From Prevotella sp. (GTDB taxonomy: Bacteria; Bacteroidota; Bacteroidia; Bacteroidales; Bacteroidaceae), in contig JAFRQC010000055.1 of assembly GCA_017428805.1 (NCBI GenBank), positions 1 to 7,874 of the forward strand: a stretch of DNA of 7,874 nucleotides, read 5' to 3'. The position numbers and the translations under genes are program-made. Below, one piece after another: positions 5,724 through 7,874 of the stretch. Every line of letters starts with the position of its first letter. Position 1 is the first letter of the stretch. The notes under the pieces were generated by a model. The model ran no database searches. It saw only the letters and a program-made list of their open reading frames with translations, and was not told the DNA's origin.

Positions 5724-5750
5724 CTTCACTTTTCACTCTTCACTTTTCAC
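5724..5750. repeat. Two-unit tandem repeat across the regulator stop codon
   Basis: The 14-base unit CTTCACTTTTCACT (5724-5737) is followed by 13 bases of a second copy (5738-5750). Read on the minus strand it is an AGTGAAAAGTGAAG pattern. It encodes the last residues (VKSEE) and stop codon (5733-5735) of the hybrid regulator and fills much of the gap before trpB. Similar low-complexity 'gtgaagagtgaa' runs are common behind Bacteroidales genes, as far as I recall. Confidence 0.7.
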
Positions 5751-7433
5751 CTGATACAAGCTCTCCATGAACTCCTTAGGCTGTACGCCGAACTGTTTTT
5801 TGAAACAGGTGGAGAAGTAGCGTGGATCACGGAATCCTACCTTATAGGCAAGGTCGCTGACGCGCAGGGTGGGGTCGGTCTGTGCGAGGCGATGGGCTTC
5901 TTTCAGACGGACGTCGCGGATGAGGCCAGAGACGTTCAGACCCGTGATGGAGCGCAACTTGTTGTAGATGGTCGACGGACTGGCACCCATATCGGCTGCG
6001 AGGGCCTCGCGGTCGTAGGTGTCGTCGTCGAGGTGGGAGTAGATACATTCGAGGACGCGGCTGAGGAACTCCTCGTCCAGCGTATTCGGAGCGGTGACGA
6101 TACGGCGGGCATCGTCGGCGGTCTCCTGATGGTATTCGGCCTGGATGCGCTTGCGGTTCTCGATGATGTTGTCGATGCGCAATTTGAGGTCTTTGAGGCG
6201 GAAGGGCTTCGTGAGATACTCGTCGGCACCGAGGAGCAGAGCCTCCTGTTCGTCTTCCTCCTGCGTCTTAGCGGTGAGGAGGATGATGGGCAGATGGCTG
6301 TAGTTGGGATCGCTTTTGACGGCCTTCGTGAGCTCGTAGCCGTCCATCTCTGGCATCATCACGTCGGAGATGATGAGGTCGAGGTCTTTCTGATGGATGA
6401 TGTCAAGGGCCTCGCGACCGTTCTTGGCGGCATAGACGTAGTAGGACGACTTCAACAGCTGTCGCATGAGCATGAGGAGCTCGGCATTGTCTTCGACGAT
6501 GAGCAGACGGTAGATGTCCTCGTCGGGATGGTCCTGAGGGTCGTTTTCTTCGATATAAACATCGGGCGTGAGTGCCTGGACGTCGATGATGGCGTTTTTG
6601 GGGATATTGAAGTCGATGGTGCGCGTCTCGTCAATCTGGTCAGGGGCGAAAGATTCCTTGTTGATGGGCAGTTCGACGGTGAAGGTGGTGCCCTTTCCCA
6701 CTTCGCTTTCGCAGCGGATGGTGCCGTGGTGCAGATAGACGAGGTCGTGGGTGAGGTAGAGTCCGAGGCCCGTGCCGATGGTACGGTGCTTACGGTATTC
6801 ACCGTCGTGGAATCGGTGGAAGAGGTTCTTCATCTTCTCTGGCGGAATGCCGTCGCCTGTGTCGCTTACCTCGATGCGGATGTGGTCGAAGGTCGTGTTT
6901 GTCTGTACCTTCAGCGTCACCTCACCGTCTTCGTGGGAGTATTTGGCGGCATTGGAGAGGAGATTGTAGATGATCTTGTCGAGTTTGTCGGTATCAATCC
7001 AGCCCATCATGCTCTCTGGATAGCAGGAGATGGTGAAATGCTGCTTTTTTTGCGCCAGAAGGGGCTCGAGACACTCGGCGGTTTCGCGGATATAGCGCAT
7101 GACGTCACCCTGTGCGACCACCAGCTTGAGCTGTCCTGCCTCCGACTTGCTGGTCTCGAGAATCTGCTGTAGCAGGCGCACCATACGCTGGATGTTGAGC
7201 TGCATAAGGTCGTAGTCGTGGCTGTGATTGGGTGCTTCGTCGCGAAGTTTGTCGACGGAGGCGGAGATTACGGTGAGCGGCGTGAGCAGTTCGTGGGTGA
7301 TGTTGGTGAAAATGTTACTCATCTGCAGACGACGGCGCAGGCGCAGGCTACGCAGGTAGAGGTTTCTGCCTACGAGACTGATGACGATGACGATTGCCAG
7401 GACGGCAAAAACTAACAATATGCGCGCAGTCAT
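5733..7433 (-). CDS. Hybrid two-component regulator (HTCS-like) without periplasmic sensor
   Basis: This 566-residue inner-membrane protein joins a histidine kinase and its response regulator in one chain. One membrane helix (about 4-22) is followed by a basic linker (23-35). The HisKA box is FTNITHELLTPLT with phospho-acceptor His47. The HATPase domain shows the N-box (NLLSNAAKY, Asn161), DTGDGIP (191-197) and GTGLGL (220-225). A receiver domain (about 308-425) has acidic pair E314/D315, phospho-acceptor Asp357, Thr387 and Lys409. An AraC-type helix-turn-helix domain occupies about 455-560. All catalytic residues are present. Bacteroidales HTCS proteins usually carry about 700-800 residues of beta-propeller/Y_Y_Y sensor before the kinase; here none exists. 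A TAA lies in frame two codons before the ATG and a promoter lies just upstream, so it is not an artefact of start choice. It may control the adjacent operator and itself (inference). TrpB2 lies downstream. Confidence 0.92.
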   Translation of the reverse strand: MTARILLVFAVLAIVIVISLVGRNLYLRSLRLRRRLQMSNIFTNITHELLTPLTVISASVDKLRDEAPNHSHDYDLMQLNIQRMVRLLQQILETSKSEAGQLKLVVAQGDVMRYIRETAECLEPLLAQKKQHFTISCYPESMMGWIDTDKLDKIIYNLLSNAAKYSHEDGEVTLKVQTNTTFDHIRIEVSDTGDGIPPEKMKNLFHRFHDGEYRKHRTIGTGLGLYLTHDLVYLHHGTIRCESEVGKGTTFTVELPINKESFAPDQIDETRTIDFNIPKNAIIDVQALTPDVYIEENDPQDHPDEDIYRLLIVEDNAELLMLMRQLLKSSYYVYAAKNGREALDIIHQKDLDLIISDVMMPEMDGYELTKAVKSDPNYSHLPIILLTAKTQEEDEQEALLLGADEYLTKPFRLKDLKLRIDNIIENRKRIQAEYHQETADDARRIVTAPNTLDEEFLSRVLECIYSHLDDDTYDREALAADMGASPSTIYNKLRSITGLNVSGLIRDVRLKEAHRLAQTDPTLRVSDLAYKVGFRDPRYFSTCFKKQFGVQPKEFMESLYQVKSEE

Positions 7434-7461
7434 GAGTTAGAGTGGTTGAAAAACTACCGTG

Positions 7462-7469
7462 CAAAAATA
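7462..7469 (-). promoter_or_regulatory. Probable -7 element of the hybrid regulator promoter
   Basis: On the minus strand TATTTTTG (followed by C) matches TAnnTTTG and lies 28 bases before the ATG at 7433, giving a leader of about 20 nt. The -33 position (7489-7492) reads TGCA rather than TTTG, so the promoter is weak or regulated. Confidence 0.55.
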
Positions 7470-7528: not shown

Positions 7529-7606
7529 ATGTTTAAAATGCGTGATTTTATGTCGAAAATGCGTTAATTCACGCATTTTAAACATAAAATAACGCAAAGT
7601 CAACAT
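7529..7606. promoter_or_regulatory. Four-site palindromic operator with AraC-like geometry
   Basis: The 17-bp element ATGTTTAAAATGCGTGA occurs at 7529-7545 (+). It recurs at 7550-7566 (+, 3 differences), at 7569-7585 (-, identical) and at 7590-7606 (-, 12 of 17 matching). Each like-oriented pair has a 21-bp period with a 4-bp gap (TTTT or AAAA). The two pairs face each other around 7567/7568, and 7539-7596 is palindromic at 25 of 29 positions per arm. AraC half-sites are 17 bp with the same 21-bp direct-repeat period. It lies between divergent promoters next to a gene for an AraC-domain regulator, the natural candidate to bind it. As RNA or DNA it could also fold into a hairpin (17-bp arms, 23-nt loop). 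Binding by the neighbour is inference; the repeat structure is directly visible. Confidence 0.8.
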
Positions 7607-7625: not shown

Positions 7626-7633
7626 TACTTTTG
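7626..7633 (+). promoter_or_regulatory. Rightward promoter -7 element lacking a -33 box
   Basis: TACTTTTG (followed by C) fits TAnnTTTG, with transcription expected from about 7639. The place for TTTG (7603-7606, 19 bp upstream) reads ACAT and is the end of the last operator copy. A poor -33 box covered by a regulator site is what an activator-dependent promoter would look like. Confidence 0.6.
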
Positions 7634-7638
7634 CACCA

Positions 7639-7738
7639 GAATAAAGATTTTAATGGTTAAGGTTTATGGTTGATTAATTTAGTTTTTTAAGTAATTTAAA
7701 GAAAAGGCTCGTTGTGAAACGAGCCTTTTCATATTTTA
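7639..7738 (+). ncRNA. Candidate short non-coding transcript or leader RNA
   Basis: A promoter element (7626-7633) and an intrinsic terminator (7701-7735) bracket about 95 nt with no credible protein. The only ATG-led frames are 6 codons (7653-7673, MVKVYG) and 3 codons (7666-7677), neither with a Shine-Dalgarno. The body is AT-rich before the GC-rich terminator hairpin. It could be a small RNA under the operator upstream, or an attenuated leader of a gene now displaced beyond the intron. No known RNA family is recognised. Confidence 0.4.
7701..7735 (+). terminator. Strong hairpin terminator before the intron
   Basis: GAAAAGGCTCGTT (7701-7713) pairs perfectly with AACGAGCCTTTTC (7718-7730) around a GTGA loop, and the 3' arm carries TTTT followed by a T-rich run. 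The reverse strand also yields a hairpin followed by a T-rich stretch, so it could terminate transcription from the right as well. Confidence 0.85.
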
Positions 7739-7874
7739 GTACGCCCAGCATGGGCGTACGCTATAGGGTGCAAGTCCCGAACGAGCCCTGATAGTGGGAA
7801 TCGTTAGCCAAGAGCAAGGGTGTCCGTGGTGACGCGGAATCTGAAGGAAGCTGGCGACAAACACTCGGCCTTAC
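7739..7874 (+). mobile_element. Group IIC-type intron, 5' part of domain I (continues past window)
   Basis: Starting GTACGCCC, the sequence shows the order of blocks of a group IIC intron ribozyme 5' end: an 8-bp stem (7739-7746 with 7752-7759) around AGCAT, GGG-tgcaagt-CCC (7766-7777), an AACGA/TCGTT pairing (7780-7784 with 7801-7805), GTGTCCGTGGTGACGCGGA (7820-7838) and CTGAAGGAAGC (7841-7851). This matches my memory of the Oceanobacillus iheyensis IIC intron. It lies 8 bases after a terminator hairpin, the known target preference of IIC introns. The 5' base triplet is GUA rather than the usual GUG. The rest of domain I, the reverse transcriptase frame and domains V-VI are outside the window, so activity cannot be judged. 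The exact first base is inferred from the consensus. Confidence 0.85.

Follow-up and report, generated by a model that had tools for sequence, protein, structure and literature searches.

The window, as the entire 7,874-nt stretch of Prevotella sp. DNA analyzed here is called, carries an array of four 17-bp sites between two divergently oriented genes (Table 1). One of these encodes a hybrid two-component system (HTCS) protein, in which Pfam models detect the complete chain of HisKA, HATPase_c, receiver, and AraC-type helix-turn-helix (HTH) domains. No Pfam domain precedes residue 38, and the N-terminal hydrophobic segment was judged by eye. Because a large periplasmic sensor domain is absent from this chain, the protein is filed as HTCS-like, in a sensor-less form. 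Its receiver loop reads SHLP, and NHLP in most relatives; an S/C-H-I-P loop is described as a mark of REC-DBD inhibition in HTCSs in the available text of PMC11253607. A profile scan of genome contigs with the orthologue alignment returned 299 relatives, and comparison was restricted to the best 80 of these 299 (59–99% identity), which come almost entirely from MAGs and isolates of rumen or gut Prevotella.

The second gene is unannotated and runs divergently from the HTCS gene; like the two promoters on either side of the array, it is absent from an earlier sequence-only reading of this DNA. A TAnnTTTG promoter box, an invariant, C-free core, and a covarying hairpin together give this stretch the anatomy of a small RNA (sRNA), and it is therefore predicted to be a small regulatory RNA gene with its own promoter, an intrinsic terminator, and a transcript of about 95 nt. 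The core is found upstream of the HTCS gene, on the opposite strand, in 79 of the 80 loci, with one mismatch in two loci and two mismatches in one. The remaining HTCS locus (L065, genome G019) has a run of Ns in the assembly at this place. The divergent switch suggested by the sequence-only reading thus has a conserved partner opposite the HTCS gene, namely this sRNA gene. On the far side of the sRNA, a convergent glutathione peroxidase and/or thioredoxin reductase gene is present in 65 of the 78 loci with enough sequence (among L001–L080). In the window, a group II intron, represented by its 5′ part (7739–7874, start placed by eye), begins ~8 nt after the sRNA terminator and includes an RF02001 domain match at 7823–7874; this intron is missing from the same position in L001, a close relative.

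Table 1 Positions of the regulatory and coding features within the window
Feature	Positions	Strand	Description
Sensor-less HTCS	5733-7433	-	566 aa; Pfam: HisKA, HATPase_c, Response_reg, HTH_18/AraC; N-terminal hydrophobic segment
CAACCA in HTCS 5′ leader	7443-7448	-	within stretch complementary to sRNA core (inferred pairing)
HTCS promoter -7 box	7462-7469	-	TATTTTTG; 59 bp from site 1
HTCS-type site 1	7529-7545	+	ATGTTTAAAATGCGTGA; distal pair, facing array centre
HTCS-type site 2	7550-7566	+	ATGTCGAAAATGCGTTA; 21 bp from site 1
HTCS-type site 3	7569-7585	-	ATGTTTAAAATGCGTGA; inverted, same sequence as site 1, among the best conserved
HTCS-type site 4	7590-7606	-	ATGTTGACTTTGCGTTA; most degenerate copy, at expected place of -33 box
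sRNA promoter -7 box	7626-7633	+	TACTTTTG; 97 bp downstream of site 1 start
Inferred small RNA	about 7638-7735	+	ends approximate
sRNA core	7648-7681	+	TTTTAATGGTTAAGGTTTATGGTTGATTAATTTA; 34 nt; perfect in 76/79 loci
sRNA terminator hairpin	7701-7730	+	compensatory changes at 10/14 stem pairs

Geometry of the four-site array

The sequence-only reading had described four copies of a 17-bp element arranged in two pairs, in which copy 3 repeats copy 1 in inverted orientation, and had likened the layout to that of AraC. This description agrees with the coordinates. Each pair is a direct repeat of 17-bp sites with a 21-bp period and a 4-bp gap, the two pairs are opposed with 19 bp between the inner starts, and sites 1 and 3 share one sequence on opposite strands. 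Two direct-repeat sites placed ~21 bp apart, the arrangement expected of an HTCS operator, are thus found twice in the array. Using a weight matrix built from the window's four copies alone and 200 dinucleotide shuffles, the four-site geometry was detected at p ≤ 0.01 in 77 of 79 orthologous Prevotella loci (L056 and L062 being the exceptions), a count across related and hence not independent loci. L241 was left out of this test for having too little upstream DNA. The proposed link between the array and the adjacent sensor-less HTCS therefore extends to orthologous HTCS loci. The mean array score is 45.4 at a spacing of 21/19/21 and drops to 30.3 or less upon changing any single spacing. In the same four-copy matrix test, 5 of 29 sRNA-model loci, a set that overlaps with the 80 HTCS loci, have no significant array. 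Some other weight-matrix counts rest in part on a matrix derived from the very loci being scored; the counts of the four-copy test, 77/79 among them, do not. The element is also not an unrelated genome-wide repeat, as a search of 12 genomes for the pair pattern with up to three mismatches gave 10 matches, seven of which lie at this locus.

In AraC, the I1-I2 operator consists of 17-bp half-sites in a 21-bp repeat, with the proximal site overlapping the −35 element. The window array differs from it in having two opposed pairs and in its association with a phosphorelay protein. As a recognition geometry for HTCSs, the direct repeat emphasized in the sequence-only reading is not new, because 21-bp direct repeats had already been predicted for 16 HTCSs of B. 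thetaiotaomicron. According to the available text of PMC3878776, these motifs comprise two conserved sites at an average distance of 21 bp and are predicted to be bound by a dimer on one face of the DNA, the Man group having sites of 16 bp separated by 5-bp spacers. That text describes a single pair for each promoter upstream of glycan-use genes, whereas the window has two opposed pairs between a regulator and a small RNA. What is new is therefore not the half-array but its context, between an HTCS gene and a divergent, unannotated sRNA gene.

Phasing of the array with two promoters

A TAnnTTTG box precedes the core in all 80 sequences including the window, within 33 nt in 73 and farther away in seven. 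At loci where promoter and core have drifted from each other, the array keeps its place beside the promoter. A strong four-site score was obtained for 71 of the 80 sequences, and in these the distance from site 1 to the sRNA −7 box is 97 bp in 70 and 98 bp in one. Site 4 consequently occupies about −48 to −32 relative to the inferred sRNA start. A TTTG at −33, 19–21 bp from the −7 box, is found in only 2 of the 80 orthologous sRNA promoters and in none of 11 array-bearing paralogues. In contrast, it is present in 6 of 9 array-less sRNA copies, at exactly 20 bp (Fisher test, 1.9e-6). Because the −33 box is nearly always missing where the array is present and mostly present where the array is missing, the sRNA promoter is read as activator-dependent.

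The core, at up to three mismatches, occurs in 23 of 24 genomes, once in 18 and in four to seven copies in five (G008, G010, G011, G013, and G014). Away from the HTCS gene, 11 of 20 paralogous or viral sRNA copies carry the array, a count that omits the diverged or doubtful L167, L171, and L172, the HTCS-linked L093, L095, and L099, and the G011 copies; prmA-linked copies have no array. Three of the 20 (L140, L141, and L142) are in IMG/VR contigs. L140 is accompanied by an integrase-like ORF, and L141 and L142 by common phage-like ORFs that also lie beside chromosomal copies (L088). Across the family the range of the core is narrow, with matches in 10 of 399 genomes (27-nt core, up to two mismatches).

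The promoter of the HTCS gene shows a similar organization. Its −33 box is rare (3/69), and its −7 box lies 59–61 bp from site 1 in 58 of 65 loci; the remaining seven distances, of 49, 50, 81, or 82 bp, differ by about whole helical turns. Both features would be expected if the array served chiefly for autoregulation of the HTCS and the sRNA were a neighbour with an overlapping promoter. This explanation is nevertheless improbable: more than half of the sRNA copies that lie away from HTCS genes have kept the array, the sRNA −7 box stands at an even more constant distance from site 1 than the HTCS box does, and the sRNA promoter has mostly regained a −33 box in copies that lack the array.

Co-occurrence and loss of the array, the sRNA, and the HTCS

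In 150 genomes of the genus, with strong sRNA-model matches (E < 1e-8) and short HTCSs (ORF of 559–616 aa, E ≤ 1e-179) both counted by hand, the sRNA is present in 52, the short HTCS in 47, and both in 46 (Fisher test, 9e-31). The sole genome among the 47 without the sRNA is G019, the assembly with the N-run. Weaker sRNA-model matches of 36–48 bits in 25 genomes were not counted as members; inspection of six of them gave nothing in five and a loosely similar RNA-like stretch in L309.

Six sRNA genomes are without a full short HTCS. Four of these (G398, G481, G488, and G512) encode in its place a 345–375-aa relative, two of the four having been assigned by eye, and in all four both site pairs are kept with a centre one base wider. 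In the two shrunken proteins that were scanned, the HTH was found, any HATPase match was weak, and neither HisKA nor the receiver was detected at E ≤ 0.1, so that the domain chain of an HTCS is not complete. One of them, aligned to the window protein, is 56% identical in the HTH part and 31% in the HATPase-like part. These genes (L221, L229, L231, and L237) appear to have lost HisKA and the receiver and to have kept the HTH, a hydrophobic segment at the N-terminus, and an eroded ATPase part. In the other two sRNA genomes, G463 and G465, there is neither a short HTCS nor a site pair scoring above shuffles.

These patterns bear on whether the array is instead the binding site of some other AraC-type regulator that has the HTCS gene among its targets. 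The three additional pairs from the 12-genome search (L176, L178, and L180) are single, lie in three genomes at unrelated genes, and could represent further targets or sites of another regulator. Two are near an efflux-type gene and a putative AraC-like membrane protein, annotated by eye, and one is near prfB and a MATE-like gene. Given this placement, there may be another AraC-type protein that recognizes a similar motif. As the regulator of the array itself, however, such a protein is given little credence, since the array and the HTCS co-occur and are lost together and the shrunken HTCS is best preserved in its HTH. Least probable of all is that the core encodes a tiny peptide (MVKVYG) or acts at the DNA level rather than as a regulatory RNA: the core does include ATGGTTAAGGTTTATGGTTGA, but the six codons are no more invariant than the bases 5′ of the ATG and 3′ of the stop, the ATG is lost in some paralogues (L087 has GTG), and the promoter, the spacing, and the covariation in the terminator are consistent with transcription.

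Proposed circuit and its relation to known systems

Based on the conservation, phasing, co-occurrence, and co-loss seen in the sequences, the array is best explained as the operator of the adjacent HTCS, which would activate the divergent sRNA gene, likely regulate its own gene, and be subject to feedback by the sRNA (estimated probability of about 0.7). Binding, activation, transcription, and pairing are all predictions in this circuit. Two dimers of the AraC-type domain would bind, one on sites 1 and 2 and the other on sites 3 and 4. The latter would be located at about −60/−40 of the rightward promoter, which possesses a −7 box but lacks a −33 box, and from this class-II position it would stimulate transcription of the sRNA through to its intrinsic terminator. 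The dimer on sites 1 and 2, at a near-fixed distance from the HTCS promoter, would likely mediate autoregulation. Because paralogous sRNA genes carry the same array in some species, one regulator would drive several sRNAs there. DNA looping is unneeded, yet it may occur.

The sRNA would probably pair with mRNA starts, including that of the HTCS, and thereby exert feedback. This is suggested by the unusual complementarity of the HTCS start region to the sRNA core: for 76 HTCS start regions, the value is −15.7, compared to −12.8 with shuffled cores, and 1 of 100 shuffles is as good. HTCS starts (55 loci) also pair with the core at a mean of −15.1 kcal/mol, compared to −11.6 kcal/mol for 488 other genes, a difference reached by shuffled cores in 1 of 60 cases, with mechanical start codons, mononucleotide shuffles, and related loci underlying these values. 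The comparison group wrongly includes several HTCS starts, an error that reduces the contrast and does not create it. Given the circuit, the chances of such feedback are about even. Starts of susC were rejected as targets (30 starts in two genomes, −13.2 versus −13.6 kcal/mol for shuffled cores, 136 of 200 shuffles as good). In eight single-copy genomes of the 12 searched, the complement of a 17-nt core segment at up to one mismatch is found only in the sRNA gene itself, and a search of seven genomes for a seed-plus-ATG pattern yielded, in the 30 loci examined, mostly matches within coding sequence and in frame. The HTCS leader is consequently the only target proposed.

HTCSs are switches of glycan-use operons, and no report of an HTCS controlling an sRNA was found among the open-licence papers searched. 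If the circuit is correct, an HTCS-controlled sRNA would connect phosphorelay signals in rumen Prevotella with control at the post-transcriptional level. The Qrr sRNAs of Vibrio are likewise multicopy, have an invariant core, are driven by the response regulator LuxO, and feed back on their regulator; they use sigma-54 promoters and Hfq. The window system belongs to another phylum and has an AraC-type hybrid kinase as its regulator. Tentatively, it could be a Bacteroidota counterpart of LuxO-Qrr, with mirror-image four-site operators, paralogous sRNAs, some of them on phage or mobile elements, and feedback on the HTCS. By this proposal the DNA-binding half and the sRNA would be so central that some lineages could discard the kinase and receiver while keeping a membrane-tethered DNA-binding protein, the operator, and the RNA. 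The series of genomes with a full HTCS, a HTCS without kinase and receiver, and no HTCS, which the operator follows, offers a natural experiment on the role of the protein.

Among Bacteroidota sRNAs, the window sRNA may already be known from Segatella as SrcF (El Mouali 2024). SrcF of Segatella copri is also a Prevotella-group sRNA and, according to a review, is linked to nutrient use. The FopS/GibS sRNAs (with RbpB) resemble the window sRNA in forming a paralogous family with a single-stranded 5′ part, a conserved seed, and a following terminator, and both share TTAAGGTT (available text of PMC11697453). According to that text, the FopS promoters are canonical and their activator is called unknown, whereas the window sRNA promoter lacks the −33 box; an HTCS acting as sRNA activator would provide a concrete model for FopS. 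Unlike FopS, the window sRNA shows no enrichment at susC starts. No Rfam family reaches its cut-off on the window sRNA, and the FopS model RF04319 scores 12.9 bits against a cut-off of 56, so the sRNA is not a member. FopS-like sRNAs (RF04319; L102–L113) do occur in the same Prevotella genomes, at other loci and with a different sequence, as 12 matches in five genomes with one copy each over the cut-off.
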